From: Moringa oleifera
Lineage: Eukaryota > Streptophyta > Magnoliopsida > Brassicales > Moringaceae
DNA length: 64,000 nt
NCBI GenBank assembly: GCA_021397835.1
Contig: JAJFZO010000731.1
Span: 744,001-808,000 of the forward strand
Direction of reading: 5' to 3'
Part shown: piece by piece, positions 20,931 to 30,873 of the stretch
Layout: each line of letters opens with the position of its first letter
Numbering within the stretch: the stretch's first letter is position 1
Notes under the pieces: model-generated
Told to the model about the DNA's origin: nothing
Database searches by the model: none
The model's input: the letters and a program-made list of their open reading frames with translations, nothing else
Made by a program: the position numbers and the translations under genes

Positions 20931-21464
20931 GGGGTATTTTTTTCTGTAGCCGTCCGTACAAGGATATTTGCGTAAATAATCAAAATTAGTAATGTATTTG
21001 TTTTTAGCACCTTTTTGACATTTAAGACAAAATTATCCTTTCTCTAACATGTGCAATTACTTATTTGTCCAAACAGAGAATTTGAGAAGTCAAACAAATC
21101 AAACGTTTCCCTTTCCCTCTCTTATTACTCTGGCGCTAAACTTCATCACTTAGTTTCGTCCCTCTACATTCGGTGTTTGTTCATTTCTTCTCTTTCGTTG
21201 TAAACCGACCTTTGAAGAATATCCGCAAGCTACTGAGTCAGAAGAAAATCAATAGCAGTATGTTTCTTAACAATATTTTCAACTCAAATTCTTCATTCCT
21301 TTCTGCTGAATATCGACTTAGTTTCATCCCTTGTTTTTCATTCATTGTTTTTTTAATATTTTTGAGTTTGGTTTATGGGTATAATAACTTGAATACACAT
21401 TTTGTTTAATATTTTTGGGCTTTGCTATTAGTTTTCCAATCTGCGATGTTTGGGTGAAAAATCG

Positions 21465-21715
21465 CAGTGTAGTTTTGCATGAGTTTATCAGATTCGTACC
21501 ATGTTAGGGCAAATCGTTCATAGTTTTAGGAATCGCACTAATTAATCGTACCTAGTTTCATAAATCGTACCTAATTTTACAGAATCGTACCTAATTTCGG
21601 TAAATCGTACCTAATTTCGGTAAATCGTACCTTATTTTTTGTAAATCGTACCTAGTTTTGGTAAATCGTACCAATTTATCGTATCAAGTTTTTTAAATCG
21701 TATCTTATTATTGTT
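21465..21715 (+). repeat. 20-bp phased TCGTACC array upstream of the MULE-B ULP1-like gene
   Basis: Seven exact TCGTACC cores start at 21546, 21565, 21585, 21605, 21625, 21646 and 21666, i.e. steps of 19, 20, 20, 20, 21 and 20 bp, usually preceded by TAAA. Weaker copies flank them. The array lies between a possible donor (GTATGT at 21258) and the acceptor CTGTAG directly before the ATG at 21749, so it probably sits in a leader intron. Confidence 0.9.
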
Positions 21716-21748
21716 TACTCTAATTTTGATGTTTTTTCGCCCCTGTAG

Positions 21749-24700
21749 ATGGCAACCAGCTCTACTTCTCAGAAGCCATACGTGATCCCTAGAGAGTCCT
21801 GGAAGACCGAAAAGATTCTAAAACACTGCGACAATGATGTCATCCCTACCTTGAAGGAAATTATGGATGACTCTCAGAAGGAGAAGTTTGAAGGAACCTG
21901 CTTGGGGCATTTTCTACACTTGCACAAAGATTTCAACTTCTCTGGGATTATTGTCTACAATCTTCTGCTGCGAGAGATACAACAAAACCGCGAGGACGAA
22001 ATGTGGTTTAGGCTGGGGCAGAATGAAGTTCGCTTTAGCAAAATCGAATTCTGCCTAATCACTGGCTTGAAGTTTGGCGAGCTACCGGACACAGACAAAA
22101 TTGCAAAAAATCCATCTGGTATTCTCGCTAAATACTTCGGCGGGCGGGGTAACGTCAGCGGTAGTAGCATCAAGACAAGGCTGCTGGAAGGAGAGTTCGA
22201 AGACGAAGATGACAAGCTGAAGTTGGCCTTGCTGTATCTACTAAATGGTTTCATCAAAGGCCATGACGAGCGCCAGTATGTACCCACATGGCAGTTCCAT
22301 TTAGTAGATAACATTGAAGCCTTCAACTGCTTTCCATGGGGCACATGGGTGTACTGCAACTCCTTGCAACATTTTAAGAAGGCAGTTGCGAATCGAGCCA
22401 TGGACGTTAAAAGGGTCAACTACAATGCCTATGGCTTCATATGGGCACTGCAAGTAAGGATCATACCTTTTTTATTTTTTTTTCATTTATTTAATTGAAT
22501 ACATGTTTTATCTTCATGAAGCCTAACTTGATTTTCTCTTCTTTTTCCATAGATTTTTGCCTTCGAAGTGATTCCTGCTACCAACATGCACGGTAGTAGG
22601 TTGTCAGGCTCGAACCTGCCATTGCCTAGAATTTGCCGATGGAGGTTCCATCGGAAGCCACATGCAGCAGATTGCAAGAAGATTTTCACTAACACTGTAA
22701 GTATACTTATCATGTCTTCATTTTCATTTCGTACATACCATTCTGATTTCGTGTCTTCATTTTTCAATTTCGTACCTTCATTCAAATTTTTGTCTCATTT
22801 TTCAAATTCGTACCTTAATTCTCAATTTCGTACCTACATGCATTCTCAATTTCGTGTCTTCAATTTTTTGTTTCGTGTCTATATTCTCAATTTCGTGTCT
22901 TCATTTTTTATCGTACCTTAATTCTCAAATTCGTACCTACATGCATTCTCAATTCGTGTCTTTAATTTTTAATTTCGTGCCTATATTCTCAATTTCGTGC
23001 CTTCATTTTTCAATTTCGTACCTTTTATTCTAAATTTCGTGCCTTTATTTTTCAATTTCGTACCTTTTATTATCAATTTCGTGCCTTTATTTTGTAATTT
23101 CGTACCTTAATTCCTCATTTCGTACCTTCATTCTTCATTTTGTTTCTTCCATTTTCAATTTAGAAGCTTCATTTTGTTTTTTTCAGATGGGGGCTAAGCT
23201 AAAGTTAGAGTCAACAATTGCTGAGAGTCATGCCCCCTATTATGTTGGCGTTGAAGATTCGATCATGCCGTTGCAGCCACATGCTCAATCCAATGTGCCG
23301 GCTACACGATCGAGTGGGGATGAGGACACTGTGGAGGGCCTCATCCAGGACAAGTCAACCAAATTGCCTGCTGCTTTGCCAAGGCAATATAAGGTATGTA
23401 TTCTTCATAATAGAAATGAGTTTTGTTGTTGTGTTTTATCATTAACAACTTATGTTACTTTCAGCGTCGAGTTGGCTTTCTTCCTGTCGAGCGACCGAGG
23501 GATCATGCATCTGATGAAGTCGTCAGTGACAGAAGAGAGCCGAGGCCACAGATGATGGCCCCTGAGGTGCGGGAGTACAACATTGAGGGTGAAGCACCTG
23601 GCGCAGAAAGAAATGCAGATGATTCAGAAGTTTGCCGTCGCCTCACTGCTATGGAGGTGAAATTAGATCTCCTTGAGGCGAGGCTAAACCAAATGGAATC
23701 ACAAAATGAAAGACGCCATGAGGAGCAAATGGCAATCTTAAAATCCATCCAGCTCTCCCTGGATGGATACGGATTTGGTGCTCGAGACCCTCCCCGCCCT
23801 ATGTCAGAACCAGTTCCTAATGATGTAAGTAATGTCGTATGTAACAATTATTTTATATTCAATTTTTAATATTGTACAACTTATTACATAAGGATGAAAT
23901 CTTTAATTGTGTTCTCTTTCTTTCAGGGTGTCAATGCAGGCTCCACATCAAATCTTCCCATCATTGAGGAAGCTGGGGCTTATGCAGAGGAAGTGGCCAC
24001 TGCAGGGCCAATGGATGAGGAAGTGGCCCCTGCAATAGATCCACAAAATGAAGCTGTGGGAGGCTTGGCTATTACCCCAGTTGAGGCAACTGACAGTGTG
24101 CTGCCAGTTGTTAGGACCCGTAAAAGGTCAAGACAACTGTGCAGCCCATATGTCAACCTTAACACTAGGGAAAAAAGAGCCAAGTACTCTCACATGCTGA
24201 GTACAAAGGCCAAATTCTCAGACAATATCCTCAGTGCATTTAACGAGTTCATGAGTGGCCAATCATAGTAAGTCATTTATAGTTACATTTTATGTTTTAT
24301 TAGCTAGATTGAATTTTTATTTTTTAACTTGTACTTACACTCTATTTTCATTTTTTTTAGCCGCAATATAAGTATCGGCCATTCAGTTAGTACAGAGTGA
24401 TTTAAGGCCTTCAAAGACAATGATGAATGGGTCGATGACTCTGTAAGTTAGTTAATTTACAAACTATTGTTCTTTACATTCTTACCATACTCGAATTAGC
24501 ATTCGTGCCTTCACTTCGTATGCTGATTTAATTTTACATTATTATTTTTGTTGTGTCAAACAGCATATTGAAGCATATTTGAGTCTCCTTCGAAGAAGGC
24601 AGAGGGAGTTCCCACAAGAATATGCACAAGATGTTTGCATCTGCGATCCGTGGCTCTATGTAAGTTTTTTGGACTTTAATTGTTTAGATGCTTTATATTC

Positions 24701-25496
24701 AATTTGTTTATTGACTTTGTTTTGCTCAATTTTGTAGACAGCAATGTTTTACATTTACAACGAATATCAAGCGGATCCAGATGCTGATTGTCCTCCTCCA
24801 CACTCCAATTTTGAAGCACACAAATGGGAACCAGACTTCCTGGATCATGTGAGAGGCAACTTCAGTCATGATTGTCCATCTTGGCACACTGTAAATAAGG
24901 TATGTATATCTTCATTGGTTGGAACACAAATTATTTTCTTGCAATATTACTTACACTCTTAACTGACATTTAAATAATATTTTTCAATGTAGTTGATGGT
25001 TCCATGCCACGTAGGGGGATCTCATTGGCTGTTAGTGGTTGTGGATCTGAAGACATTTTCCTTAAGGATTTATGACTCTTCCCGACAAAAGATCCCCAGT
25101 GAGGTGCGTATTCGGCAACAAAATCCCCTCAGATATATGCTACCTAGCTACATGGCTAGCGGGGGATATTTCATGCAGAAACCAGAGGTTAATAAGCCGA
25201 ATATTCCACTCTCCTGCACACTAGAGCCAAAGAACAAGGTCCCCCAGCAGAGAAAAAGGTAAGAGTCTTTTTTTGCTAATTATTATCCTTATTTAGAAGT
25301 TTTATGTTCAATGTTAATTTCTTTTAACTGTGTTGTTTTTTTTTTCAGTGGCAATTGCGGACCTCACATGCTGTACATAATAGAGCATTTGCTAACTGGG
25401 AAGACACTCAAATACACTGACAAAGACATGCCAAAGATACGAAAACATATGACATTACATGTATTTGCTAATTCAATTGTAGATGATAAGGGTTAA
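21749..25496 (+). pseudogene. DUF1985 / ULP1-like (C48) cysteine protease gene of MULE-B, one nonsense codon
   Basis: Ten exons with consistent phases: 21749-22453, 22553-22696, 23187-23393, 23465-23824, 23927-24267, 24361-24442, 24564-24659, 24738-24899, 24993-25258 and 25349-25496 (837 codons). Exon 1 is DUF1985-like (RFSKIEFCLITGLKFGE; LLNGFIKGHD; WGTWVYCNSLQHF). Exon 4 contains a coiled coil (KLDLLEARLNQMESQNERR), and exon 5 acidic repeats and a basic RTRKRSRQ patch. Exons 9-10 form a ULP1/SENP-type protease with His710 (GGSHWLLVVVD), Asp727 (RIYDSS) and Cys791 (SGNCGPHML). Such proteases cleave SUMO or related modifiers. Codon 599 is TGA (24398-24400) where MULE-A has TGG (EWFK), so translation would stop after the DUF1985/coiled-coil part and lose the protease. 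Otherwise the gene looks intact, which is why the break seems recent. Confidence 0.86.
22728..23165 (+). repeat. Long phased TTTCGTACC/TTTCGTGCC array in intron 2 of the MULE-B ULP1-like gene
   Basis: About twenty cores with TTCGTACC, TTCGTGCC or TTCGTGTC. Their CG positions fall near 22730, 22750, 22771, 22809, 22829, 22853, 22874, 22894, 22912, 22932, 22955, 22976, 22996, 23017, 23038, 23059, 23080, 23101 and 23121. Most steps are 20-21 bp and the gap at 22771-22809 is two steps. It fills nearly the whole intron between 22697 and 23186 and reads in the direction of the gene. Confidence 0.9.
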
Positions 25497-25519
25497 AACA
25501 TTTTTATTCTTTTTACATT

Positions 25520-25752
25520 ACATTGTATTCATTTGTATATACATTCAAAAATTGTGTATAATATTTTTTTGCAAATAAAAGAATCATTTACAGTACATTG
25601 TATTCATTTGTATATACATTCAAAAATTGTGTATAATATTTTTTTGCAAATAAAAGAATCATTTACAGTACATTGTATTCATTTGTATACACATTCAAAA
25701 ATTGTGTATAATATTTTTTTGCAAATAAAAGAATCATTTACAGTACATTGTG
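25520..25752 (+). repeat. Three tandem 75-bp units directly after the ULP1-like stop codon
   Basis: Units start at 25520, 25595 and 25670, with the start of a fourth at 25745; they are nearly identical (one visible base difference in unit 3). Each contains AATAAA (in GCAAATAAAAGAATC), so a possible poly(A) signal is present three times beginning about 25 bp after the stop codon at 25496. The 75-bp unit is divisible by three, which makes an accidental open frame; it is not a gene. Confidence 0.92.
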
Positions 25753-25834
25753 CAATCATTTTACTTCTTCTCTAATCTACAAAAAAATTTTCATTATATT
25801 GTTAGTGTTCATTGAAGACTCTTGAATGTGCATG

Positions 25835-26430
25835 AACATTGAAGATACGATTTCACTAATAAAGGTGCGATTTATTTACCATTAAAGGTACGATTTTTCT
25901 ATCAAAGTACGAATTAATGGTACGATATAATACATAAGGTACGATTTTTCCAAAAAAAGGTACGAATTAATGATACGATATAATATATAAGGTACGATTT
26001 CACGGCTAAATGTACGAAATGATTGGGAGATTCAATATTTAAGATACGATTTTTAATGTTGCATTTTTGAAAAAGATGGTATGAATTAAAGGTACGATTT
26101 ATTATTTAAAACATGAATACAATGTACGATTTTACTAATAAACGTACGAATTAAAGGGGTGACATATTATGCAAGGTACAATTTTATGAATAAAGGTGCG
26201 AAATGATGGTGCGATTCAATATTTAAGTTACGATTTTATGAATAAAGGTGCGAAATGATGGTGGTGCGATTCAAAATTTAAGTTACGATTTTATTGTTAC
26301 AAGTGTGAAAATGACCGTGCGAATTGAAGGCACGATTTTTAATTTAAGATATGATTACAATGTACGCTTTCACTAATAAGGTGCGAATTAAAGGTACGAA
26401 TTAAAGGTGCGAATTAAAGGTACGAATTAA
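25835..26430 (-). repeat. GGTACGATT/GGTGCGAAT motif cluster between the two MULE-B genes
   Basis: Plus-strand GGTACGATTT, GGTACGAATT and GGTGCGAAAT cores; on the minus strand AAATCGTACC. The first copies fall at 25848, 25868, 25891, 25910, 25923, 25942, 25963, 25976, 25995 and 26015, a mix of 19-23 and 13-bp steps. The orientation switches relative to the ULP1-gene arrays and follows the transposase, whose stop codon is at 26510. Confidence 0.88.
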
Positions 26431-26509
26431 GAATATCAAAATAATATACCAATCAGTAATGAAAAATAAGTTTGCAAATAATAATAATATAATCAAAACA
26501 TTAGAATTA

Positions 26510-29228
26510 TCATAAACCATTTGTGTCATCATCTAGTGAAGTTGAATTTAGAGGCATTTTACAAGTTTGTGAATTATGCTCAACTATACCACAATTACGA
26601 CATTTACGACGCAACTGATCAGGCACCTTAGACGATCGAGAGTGACTCACTCCATCATAATATTGTGGATTCGAGCACGTCAATCGATTGTGTCCATATT
26701 GCATGCATCTAGAGCACTTCTTTTGGACCGTCCTCTCCCCACCAGAGGGTATTCTCCGTTTTTTAGGACGCCCTGGTGACTTACCATTATTTGGTGGTAA
26801 TACAATAACTCTTCTAACTTCCTCAGGTACATCCCAATCAGACTTATCACCAATTGGATATACCGGCTCAGAGTACGCTGCTACTAGTTGATCCTGCTTA
26901 TAGTAGTTAGAGCAAAGAGTTATGAAGTCAATATTACGTTCCCTGTAAAAAAGGCCAAATTTGTGAAGTTAATACAAGCAATAACAATGAATAATTAAAA
27001 AATAGAGGAAATTGTCAAAATTAGCATCAATGTCACCTGGAAGCTGCTAGTGCATGTGCACATGGCAAGAGATCAGCCTGAAACTCTCTACAAGTGCAAG
27101 TACGTTCAATAAGATTCACAATTACCTCCTTACCCTTCTGCCTAACTAAAAATACATTCCAATCAACATTGGAGGCTGTCATTTGTAATGAAACTTTTTG
27201 TCTCTCAGTCATCAATGAGTGAGCCCATTCTGTTAGTTGTGACCTCCAAACTTTAGCTCTCTCAAGTCGATTATAGAACCAACGTTGCATCATGTCTCGA
27301 ATGAATTCCAATAGAGCTGTCACAGGTAACTCTCGAGCAAATCGCAGACACGAATTCAAGCTCTCAGCTATGTTAGTGGTCATGAGTTGATATCGTCTTT
27401 GGGGGCAATACACACGTGACCATTTTCTCGGATCTTCCTTCATGACATATTCGAATGCTTTAGGGTGATTAGCCTGCAACTCAGTCATCAATTTATTAAA
27501 TTCAGACTCTCGATATACCCTTGCTGCATTATAAAATATCTTAGATATATTTTCCCTCTTGAATTTATTCTTTATATTTTGAGCCATATGCCACGAACAT
27601 AAACCATGACAAGAATTGGGGAAGACCTTTGCGATGGCATTTGCAATACTGACATGACGATCTGATATAATAACCAAGTCCTCAACCGAGCCTATAGCTT
27701 CTTTCAGTTGCCGTAAGAACCACTCCCATGCATCATAGTTCTCGGAGTCACCATAACCGAATGCTAGTGGATATATCTGTTCATTCCCATCTTTGCACGC
27801 CGCTACAAACATTACACCGTGAAACCTTCCTTTTAAGTGAGTGGCATCGATAGCAATGACCGGTCTGATTACTAAATGGAACCCCCTCAATGATTGCCCA
27901 AGAGCCACAAATAAATACTTAAATCGATTAGTTCTATCTTCAATACATATGTGAGCCTTAGTTCCTGGATTAATTGTTTGCAACATGTGGCAGTATGACG
28001 GCAATTGTTGATATGACTCAATTGGGTCACCATATGTAAGAGACAACGCATACTCTTTAGCCTTCCAAGCTTTACTGTATAAAATTTGTATGCCATAGAG
28101 TTCTTTCATATCACCCATGATATCTTTCGGCTTAATGATTCTAGCATTAGTAGACAACCTTTGAGCCATAATTTCTCCAATAATGGCAGAACTTGCTTGT
28201 TGATGCCGTCGATGCAACTCTTCAACTGTGCAAGTGTGTGTCAAATCACACCTTCTAATTTGAAAGAATTGTCCTTGTGCAACTCTCACAGCACGAATCT
28301 TCCATGCACAATTTCTTTCTCTACAAGCAATCTCAAATAATGATTTGTTAGACCTAGTGACTCTAAACTCAAAGTTCTCAGTTAAAGCATGCACACCCAA
28401 AAATCGCTTCAGCTCTTTTTTGTTCGGAAAAAACTGACCTCTAGCAAGGGTGTCAATTGGAGTCACTGATTCCATAGTAGAAGTCGACGTAAGACCGTGT
28501 AATTCAGCACCCAACACACCATACCGTCTGACAACACCATCACTTGGATTATTATGTACTTTCGGGCATGTGACTGGGATATAAGGTGGGACAGGACGTA
28601 GATTCTCATTCAATTCTTCATTGTCATGTTTTGCTTCTGGAATGGGTTCACATTGATCTTCACTGGTGGGTTGAGTAGGATGAGTTTCCATGATTGGGTA
28701 TTTACACCTAATATCATAGTCCACCCGCTCATCCAAGTTGATCACATCGGTATGGATCTCATTAGTATGCTGAGTGTCAATGGGAGTCTCACTATGGATG
28801 AATGGTTCAATTCCATATACATCTAATTCAATAGTTGGATTACTCCCAGAACAACTTATGTTAATAGGATTGACTCGTCTTGAAATTTCACCTTCACATA
28901 AACTTTGTCTATTCTCAACAAAATTTCGCTCCACTAGATCAACAATCACACGAGGAATTATGCTGTCATCGTACAACATAAACTCAACATCGTCATCATT
29001 CACTAACTCAATTTTGCTAGCAGTTTTTTCAGATCTTACTATAGTATGCAGTACAACATCAGTCATAGTGAAATCAACCTCCACACAAGATTTAACCAAA
29101 TCCAGCAACTGCACATATGTCAAACCCCTCCGAACAATATATCCCTTAGTTTTGATATATCTGCCAACATACTCAAAACTACCACTGGACTCAGACCACT
29201 CACCATTCCAAGTTACAATTATCCGCAT
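26510..29228 (-). CDS. MuDR-type MULE transposase, two exons, apparently intact
   Basis: Cuts and inserts the element by recognising its ends. Exons 29228-27037 and 26942-26510 join in phase (874 aa). I chose MRIIVTWNGEW at 29228 because an acceptor-like TTTACAG directly precedes it and MULE-A has the same context; an in-frame Met at 29249 is an alternative. Domains: N-terminal MuDR-type region, DNA-binding region with Cys/His residues at about 295-335 (CAWKIRAV, RRCDLTHTC), DDE transposase core (Asp461 in VIAIDATHLKG, Asp523 in IISDRH, then CSWHMAQN and a downstream Glu), SWIM zinc finger (CTC about 711, CAH about 723). Exon 2 adds two CX2CX4HX4C zinc knuckles (Cys807-Cys820 and Cys845-Cys858). 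No stop or frameshift was found. Confidence 0.93.
27005..27028 (+). repeat. Internal inverted copy of the MULE-B right terminus
   Basis: 24 bp beginning GAGGAAATTGTCAAAATTAG, an exact reverse complement of the element's right end at 29972-29995. It lies inside the 94-bp last intron of the transposase gene, eight bases from the 5' splice site. The equivalent intron of MULE-A shows only weak similarity here. Confidence 0.9.
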
Positions 29229-29284
29229 TCTGTAAAGAAAATATTTCAAATTACAATTGAAAATAATTACTTATAACATAAAAT

Positions 29285-29480
29285 AATGCACGATTTCATA
29301 AACTTGTTACGATTTCATGATAGAAGTTACGAATTATCATAATCATGTTACGATTTACTAAGACATGATTTTCAAACATATATATTTTTTCATATTCTAT
29401 ATATAATCGAATATTTAAGCTACGTTGTTGCGCAAATGCATAATTATGTTACGATTTATCAATTAAGATACGATTTTAAT
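29285..29480 (-). repeat. TTACGATTT motif cluster upstream of the MULE-B transposase
   Basis: Spaced GTTACGATTTC, GTTACGAATT and ATACGATTTT copies. On the minus strand they read AAATCGTAAC, in the direction of the transposase, and sit just upstream of its start codon at 29228, probably in a leader intron. An (AT)n run lies at 29480-29500. Confidence 0.75.
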
Positions 29481-29971
29481 ATATATATATATATATACAT
29501 ATATATACATTCATATATATGGAAGAACACAAATTATATTCAAGCTACATTATTGTTCAAAGGTATACCCGTCACCCTTTTCACCTTCGAGCACGTTCTG
29601 ATTTTGAAGACAAATATGTTGTGAAAACACACGAGATTGAGAAATATGCACTCAAAAATATGAGCTTTCTTCTCTGCAGGACAAATAGTTAAAAATGTTA
29701 GTGACTACCTTCGATTCCTTCTTTGGATCTTGGATACAAAGGAGGGAAGAAAAAACCAAAAGAGAGAGCAAAGAAAAACTCAGACACAAGAAAAAGAGGT
29801 CGGAGAGAGAGAGACAGCTCAAATGAAGAAAGTATTCAGACAAATCTCCTCAATTTTTGAATTATTTTAATTTCAAGGGTATCATTGTCTTTTTTAAGGG
29901 TATTTTTGTCTTTCTGATATATGTAAGTGCTAAAAAAAACAAAAGTTTCTTTTGCAAAAAAATATTGGCGG

Positions 29972-29995
29972 GATGCTAATTTTGACAATTTCCTC
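29972..29995 (-). repeat. MULE-B right terminal sequence
   Basis: The minus strand begins GAGGAAATTGTCAAAATTAG. It aligns with the left end of MULE-A (GAGGAAATTATTAAAATTGA) and is followed by the right target duplication. Confidence 0.9.
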
Positions 29996-30004: not shown

Positions 30005-30873
30005 TCTGGCATCCGTTGGCAATGGCATTAGTGGCAGTATCGGCAGTCTCAAAAAATTTAGTATCATAACCTCAGTAAATCAAACACTCTTTCACTTAAT
30101 TTCTAACCACCTAGCAAAGCACAGAGAGAATCCCGCAAAAATTCCAATTTGGTCTTTCTTGTCTTCATTTTCTTGGAATCAAGGTACGATTTGATCCATT
30201 TTCCCTAATTTCCCTTTGCGATCTCTCTCTCCCCGTTCCTTTGTGTTTTGCTGATTATCAGTTGATCTACGCTTTTGAAACTGATTATTGGGTCTCAAAG
30301 CAGCTATGAAAGGGATCCTGAACGTGGATCGATCCCAAATATGTTTACCGCGCTTAATTTCTCTGGTCTTTCTTCCCTAACTACATTGAGCGGTCATTCT
30401 CTGTTTGGTTCTAAAAAAAAAATGGGAAGAAATAATGATGAAAGTAAAGAAGAAGAAAGAAAAAACCTGCCTCTACCTTTGAGTTCTTGCTGCTCTCTGG
30501 ATGAATAATGTAACTCAACGGAGCTCTGTTGTCTAAATCGTACAATTAGGTTCAATTTTTAGTGGACTTTATTCATTTCCTGCTGCCTCAATTTAGATCT
30601 CCTTCTCCGCATTTCTTGCTATCTAAAATGATGCACTATCCTTTCCTTCTTGGCTACTTATTATGCTATCAGTTTACTGATTCTCTTGTGTTTGAGACCT
30701 AAAAAGAAGATCATGAACTTAAGCATACTCTGTGGATTCGATTCTAATTTTGCTGCTTTTCCATCACTTTTGCAGGTCAATTTTTCCATTGATATTTTCT
30801 GCTTAAAGATTCATTTCCACTTATAGAGAAAGAAAACAATAGAAAAAAGAACATAGAGTGGTAGTTAGAAGCA
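30005..30873 (+). promoter_or_regulatory. Promoter, 5' UTR and leader intron of the Rgp1-family gene
   Basis: A likely leader exon ends at TCAAG|GTACGA (30183/30184) and resumes after TTTTGCAG (30775/30776), giving a 592-bp leader intron; the ATG follows at 30874. The pyrimidine-rich stretch typical of plant leaders is around 30210-30240. MULE-B ends at 29995, so the whole region from element to candidate donor is only about 190 bp. I see no obvious TATA box. Confidence 0.5.

Follow-up and report, generated by a model that had tools for sequence, protein, structure and literature searches.

A window of 64,000 nucleotides from the Moringa oleifera genome (contig JAJFZO010000731.1, positions 744,001 to 808,000 of the forward strand) contains a young plant transposon, here called element B, which is a Mutator-like element (MULE) with a VANC-like gene on one strand and a transposase gene on the other (Table 1). 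Its ends were set by comparison with L043, a copy on contig C550 that is 98.6-98.8% identical to B. The two copies end identically, B being flanked at 20931 and 29995 by the 9-bp target site duplication (TSD) AAATCCAAA and L043 by another 9-bp TSD, ATTTGAAAT; an initial annotation, made from the letters alone, had placed the ends of B at exactly these positions. MULE TSDs are about 8-11 bp long, and 9 bp were found in B, in L043 and in two of three gene-less derivatives described below. A search for terminal inverted repeats (TIRs) at the ends of B found none (14 of 30 positions identical, with a local alignment score equalled by 109 of 500 shuffles), and absent or degenerate TIRs are the mark of the VANDAL-like non-TIR MULEs. 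No third gene (VANB or an equivalent) was evident among open reading frames (ORFs) of at least 80 residues, a survey that small or spliced genes could escape and in which the other ORFs had no Pfam scan.

Table 1. Features of the window (positions count from its first letter).
Feature	Position	Strand	Basis or remark
Element B, non-TIR MULE with VANC-type gene	20931..29995		TSD; ends of L043; no TIR
VANC-like gene, 10 exons	21749..25497	+	DUF1985 in exon 1; Ulp1 from exon 6 on
VANC-like exons 1-5	21749-22453, 22553-22696, 23187-23393, 23465-23824, 23927-24267	+	
VANC-like exons 6-10	24361-24442, 24564-24659, 24738-24899, 24993-25258, 25349-25497	+	
Transposase, main exon (DBD_Tnp_Mut, MULE, SWIM)	27033..29228	-	Pfam
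Transposase, second exon, zinc-knuckle-like	26510..26968	-	zinc-knuckle matches, all under Pfam cut-offs
Array 1, 10 TCGTRHC sites	21494..21704	+	before VANC-like start codon, within predicted intron of the 5' untranslated region (5'UTR); motif starts 21494-21698
Array 2, 18 TCGTRHC sites	22749..23126	+	VANC-like gene intron 2; motif starts 22749-23120
Array 3, 14 TCGTRHC sites	25844..26425	-	3' of transposase gene, on transposase sense strand; motif starts 25844-26419
Array 4, 5 TCGTRHC sites (4 are TCGTAAC)	29306..29473	-	5' of transposase; motif starts 29306-29467
75-bp tandem repeat, 3.2 copies	25512..25751		without TCGTACC-type motif
MULE-A, older, reversed relative of B	9310..17310		gene order as in B; arrays decayed; ends approximate

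All nine introns of the VANC-like gene are of the GT-AG type. Pfam recognises DUF1985 in it (PF09331, 8e-25), and the frame of L043 is open for 836 residues, therefore an open copy of the gene exists. The spliced 836-residue L043 protein carries both DUF1985 and a Ulp1/Peptidase_C48 domain (1.1e-23), which is the domain pair of the KIU type, and the DUF1985-like protein and fused ULP1-type domain of the initial annotation are thereby borne out. A DUF1985-family profile, built from 14 of 15 database proteins (P0009, which has no DUF1985, was excluded) and 11 exon-1 translations, matches Arabidopsis VANC21 at E 5e-17, indicating that the DUF1985 part is homologous to VANC21 and the protein a putative member of the VANC family, a relationship that had been suspected. 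In the Ulp1 domain, H, D and C line up with their SENP1 counterparts and PQQ retains its glutamine; we take this H, D, Q and C to be the catalytic residues, and the domain thus appears to keep those of Ulp1/SENP, with putative protease activity. Upstream of the start codon, an AG-ATG acceptor in seven of seven loci examined and an upstream GTATG donor-like site in five of the seven suggest a 5'UTR intron (window 21259-21748) that would house array 1. The 75-bp tandem repeat, whose copies match at 98%, lies directly 3' of the VANC-like stop codon.

TCGTACC, a word with CpG at its core, occurs 33 times in the window (25 in B, 7 in MULE-A, 1 elsewhere), compared with a mean of 1.12 and a maximum of 5 in 100 shuffles. 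All four motif clusters that the initial annotation had described around the two genes were located; the fourth departs from that description in holding only variants (TCGTAAC, TCGTATC) and no TCGTACC, and the variants it had named, TCGTGCC or TCGTAAC, are present in clusters 2, 3 and 4. The motif had also been assigned to noncoding DNA, and this holds for 100% of the 29 plus-strand sites of TCGT[AG][ACT]C in B and for 19 of the 21 on the minus strand (14 intergenic and 5 upstream of the transposase), the other two being exonic. MULE-A, as had been noted, contains the clusters in decayed form, with the same architecture reversed. A lone minus-strand TCGTACC stands at 30183, about 190 bp past the right end of B; about one chance match per window is expected.

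The arrays have a pronounced direction, which had escaped the initial annotation together with their pitch of about 20 bp and a stop codon in exon 6. Polarity was counted on the VANC side only in 34 loci, namely the best 30 of 150 scored matches to the VANC-like gene (window copy included) and 4 from the remaining 120: all 481 occurrences of TCGTACC read in VANC sense and none in antisense, and a wider pattern gives 757 to 7. In B itself the polarity is 29 to 1 on the VANC side and 20 to 0 on the transposase side, in L043 all 28 plus sites lie left of all 22 minus sites, and in MULE-A the ratios are 16 to 2 and 6 to 0, with both exceptions being transposase-side sites in a doubly counted stretch. 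Of the 73 listed TCGTACC pairs near DUF1985 matches, 60 are upstream or in the gene body on the same strand, and 13 are distal on the opposite strand. The net result is that the arrays at both ends are directed towards the interior of the element. The spacing in the 34 loci is mainly 19-21 bp. Strict phasing at 10.25 bp per helical turn was considered and rejected, being strong in clades E and F and weak in D, G, MULE-A and the transposase side of B; a pitch near 20 bp is a preference only.

In 72 of 187 array contexts, picked for differing spacers and with the core fixed by the search pattern, WW flanks the core and WW-N-W-TT follows it, and most remaining spacer positions are near background. 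The TCGT part of the core varies almost solely through CpG transitions (TTGTACC 19 and TCATACC 53, other changes 0-2 each, versus 480 TCGTACC), whereas position 5 also takes G (84) and C (26) and position 6 takes T (71) and A (9). Because related copies are not independent, the scarcity of other changes in TCGT is suggestive only.

Across the assembly (279.5 Mb, 669 contigs), VANC-like exon 1 has at least 150 scored matches (813 candidates) at 62-100% identity. TCGTACC pairs 10-17 bp apart number 552, versus 45 for the reversed pattern, in which there is no CpG. The first 100 of the 552 in contig order (C1 to C12) were listed, and 84 fall inside family copies by coordinates. The other 16 form eight loci, all of which were inspected: five (L007, L047-L050) hold copies that are decayed or partial, and the remaining three (L044-L046) hold gene-less derivatives. 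In the group of seven pairs at C3:2595851, the gene is seen in L007, and two pairs lie past the examined stretch at offsets typical of arrays 2 and 3. Thus none of the first 100 pairs lies outside the MULE family, in keeping with the private motif that had been claimed. The three derivatives, each of about 2.1 kb (L044:1279-3397, L045:1379-3494, L046:812-2925), have no match to the VANC-like protein or the transposase and retain both element ends and both outer arrays, pointing inward. Two have an exact 9-bp TSD; in the third, 8 bp agree exactly, or more if a mismatch is allowed. Most of their middle is taken up by a repeat, about 370 bp long, that occurs commonly at other genomic sites; the middle as such has three full-length matches in the genome and one partial match.

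The motif differs between clades. With L040 (62% identical) as the query, 59 of 150 matches, counted by eye, show at least 75% identity and make up clade F; all other exon-1 copies, including subfamilies D, E and G, were treated as clade B. Pairs of TCGTGYC 12-14 bp apart, a narrower gap range than the 10-17 bp used for TCGTACC, number 425 versus 6 for the reversed control. Among 100 listed TCGTGYC pairs, clade F accounts for 58, every one of them VANC-sense, and clade B for 30, with 12 unassigned; of the 100 listed TCGTACC pairs 94 belong to clade B by coordinates and none to clade F, with the other 6 in partial copies or derivatives. The shift is one of preference, not exclusion. In the intron-2 array of L040, the 20-21 bp pitch is kept, the spacers differ and TCGTACC is mixed with TCGTGYC; therefore, core and pitch persist longer than the spacers, which is what one would expect if they formed a binding site. 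A second dense TCGTGYC array, stepping by about 19 and 21 bp, occurs in clade F copies about 3 kb past the VANC-like start (C3:4134903-4135021, C12:7463740-7463879, C13:176842-177021).

The transposase of B carries the MULE transposase domain (PF10551 1.4e-21, PF00872 5.4e-14) and has 61 scored matches in the genome; its second exon is 74% identical to the MULE-A counterpart, and an acceptor-like CAG immediately precedes the start of the transposase. The approximate ends of MULE-A derive from matches of the gene-less derivatives. Its transposase is 66-75% identical to that of B, and the two elements, related and of differing age, lie in opposite orientation about 3.6 kb apart.

Several features recall known systems. 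In Arabidopsis, the motif bound by VANC21 is YAGTATTAY, repeated in tandem in noncoding DNA, and the targets of VANC6 contain AGTTGTCC or AGTTGTAC (PMC5735166). VANDAL21/VANC21, VANDAL6/VANC6 and B are alike in pairing a DUF1985 protein, anti-silencing in Arabidopsis, with a short motif repeated in tandem in introns and upstream noncoding DNA (PMC5735166). By our own string comparison, made without a chance level, T-N-G-T is common to TAGTAT (VANC21), TTGTAC (VANC6) and TCGTAC (B). B differs from the two Arabidopsis systems in its motif with CpG at the core, in the Ulp1 domain of its protein and in having no evident third gene. The fusion to Ulp1, which the initial annotation had also pointed out, is not new but known from KIU: a 2026 review describes VANC genes with an Ulp1 domain, carried by non-TIR MULEs, as causing hypomethylation of related elements (PMC13317346). 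KIU/Kaonashi and B share the combination of DUF1985 and Ulp1 in a VANC gene of a non-TIR MULE; B has its own motif and shows two genes compared with three in that account. Degenerate TIRs, and VANC targets that overlap those of RNA-directed DNA methylation, are described in later work by the same group (PMC10398659). The Arabidopsis transposase relatives among the matches mostly carry PF10532, and the B transposase PF03108. Nine of 15 matches in a protein database comparison that scored the 7995 candidates with most shared words are Acer negundo proteins (P0001-P0008, P0011) with the DUF1985-Ulp1 pair as in B, at 28-41% identity. Sasaki (2022, EMBO J) reportedly found that DUF1985 and Ulp1 were gained and lost across eudicots and that motifs recur with helical periodicity. 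TCGTACC was not found in the papers listed by a literature search on VANC motifs, to which the Sasaki motifs did not belong. The general system is thus already known; what may be new is the TCGTACC word with its strict direction.

Taken together, we consider the best reading to be an anti-silencing system of the VANC type that has a CpG-centred motif of its own, with a probability of about 0.8, in agreement with the trans-factor and private cis-motif pair of the initial annotation. The TCGTACC-type word is probably the landing site of the co-encoded VANC-like protein. Underlying this are the homology to VANC21, noncoding one-way arrays confined to the family among the listed pairs, a core and pitch kept as spacers change, arrays in gene-less derivatives and a clade-dependent motif preference. 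We infer binding of the arrays by the protein, and hypomethylation through that binding. The DUF1985 part most likely binds the TCGTRYC arrays of its own element, direct repeats at about two helical turns in the introns and flanks of both genes; binding would strip silencing marks from the entire element and would act in trans on its sister copies and the gene-less derivatives as well. The Ulp1 domain may remove SUMO near bound chromatin, although this is the least supported step and the link to desumoylation is conjecture. More tentatively, the one-way arrays could be functional in themselves, with an asymmetric VANC protein laid head to tail, inward from both ends, on a CpG-centred site; binding itself would then read or block methylation, and motif and protein would shift jointly (TCGTACC in clade B, TCGTGYC in clade F) around the T-N-G-T core shared with the Arabidopsis VANC sites.

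A number of observations weigh against the VANC-type reading. The window copy has a TGA at 24398-24400 in exon 6 and cannot reach a full-length Ulp1 part, and the structure model is mediocre (mean predicted local distance difference test score 65.9, predicted template modelling score 0.67). Subfamily D and MULE-A include 13 and 18-19 bp steps, therefore the two-turn pitch is not strict; clade F copy L040 holds three TCGTACC at 41-bp spacing, and there are the 30 listed TCGTGYC pairs of clade B. Furthermore, the element had been called a candidate self-protecting transposon, and slower decay of motif CpGs would be the footprint of copies that stay unmethylated. Across 24 copies, motif CpGs decayed to TG or CA at 104 of 639 positions and exon CpGs at 90 of 720 (other array-region CpGs 71 of 519, 5' distal 28 of 335), and in the nine copies nearest B (L009-L016, L030) at 12 of 251 and 10 of 270. 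Motif CpGs thus decay at least as fast as exon CpGs; the footprint was not found, and the mutations give no sign that the element is protected. Since old copies are probably silenced anyway, the decay counts against lasting protection, not against transient anti-silencing. A strand asymmetry of decay, hinted at by the plain count (53 TCATACC versus 19 TTGTACC), was dropped at 55 TG versus 49 CA in the 24-copy alignment.

Other explanations fit less well. Since the noncoding stretches that hold the arrays in sense orientation (intron 2, the predicted 5'UTR intron, the 3' flank of the transposase gene) are, or probably are, transcribed, UCGUACC repeats might act in RNA and steer splicing or stability of element transcripts, and the strong sense polarity would suit this. 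We regard it as improbable, as the co-encoded protein is homologous to VANC21, which was crystallised on its target DNA, and gene-less derivatives keep both outer arrays, though simple inheritance could explain the latter. Slightly less probable still is that slippage expanded ordinary tandem repeats or transposase sites into the arrays, which would then be passengers without involvement of the VANC-like protein: tandem repeats were called across the arrays and subterminal repeats are common in Mutator elements, but the flanking WW and WTT recur in the 72 contexts while most spacer positions do not, core positions 1 and 4 hardly ever change and positions 2 and 3 hardly ever do so other than by CpG transition (suggestive only, as noted above), and array 2 is intronic, about 1.8 kb from the element end. 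A host transcription factor that binds the motif and drives element transcription while the DUF1985 protein acts elsewhere would agree with arrays 1 and 4 lying near the two gene starts and is very unlikely, given that all 100 listed TCGTACC pairs lie in the MULE family and the position-5 preference varies with the DUF1985 clade.

Sequence-specific anti-silencing is proven in Arabidopsis, and the Moringa oleifera genome provides a natural test outside that genus. The material comprises at least 150 scored copies at 62-100% identity, an open copy, two clades that differ in the motif they prefer, and gene-less passengers. With VANC21-DNA structure available in the PDB as 9lnj/9lnk, the comparison of the clades makes the site-choice rule of DUF1985 proteins testable. 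The CpG-centred motif, finally, poses the question of whether methylation of the site blocks the very protein meant to remove methylation.
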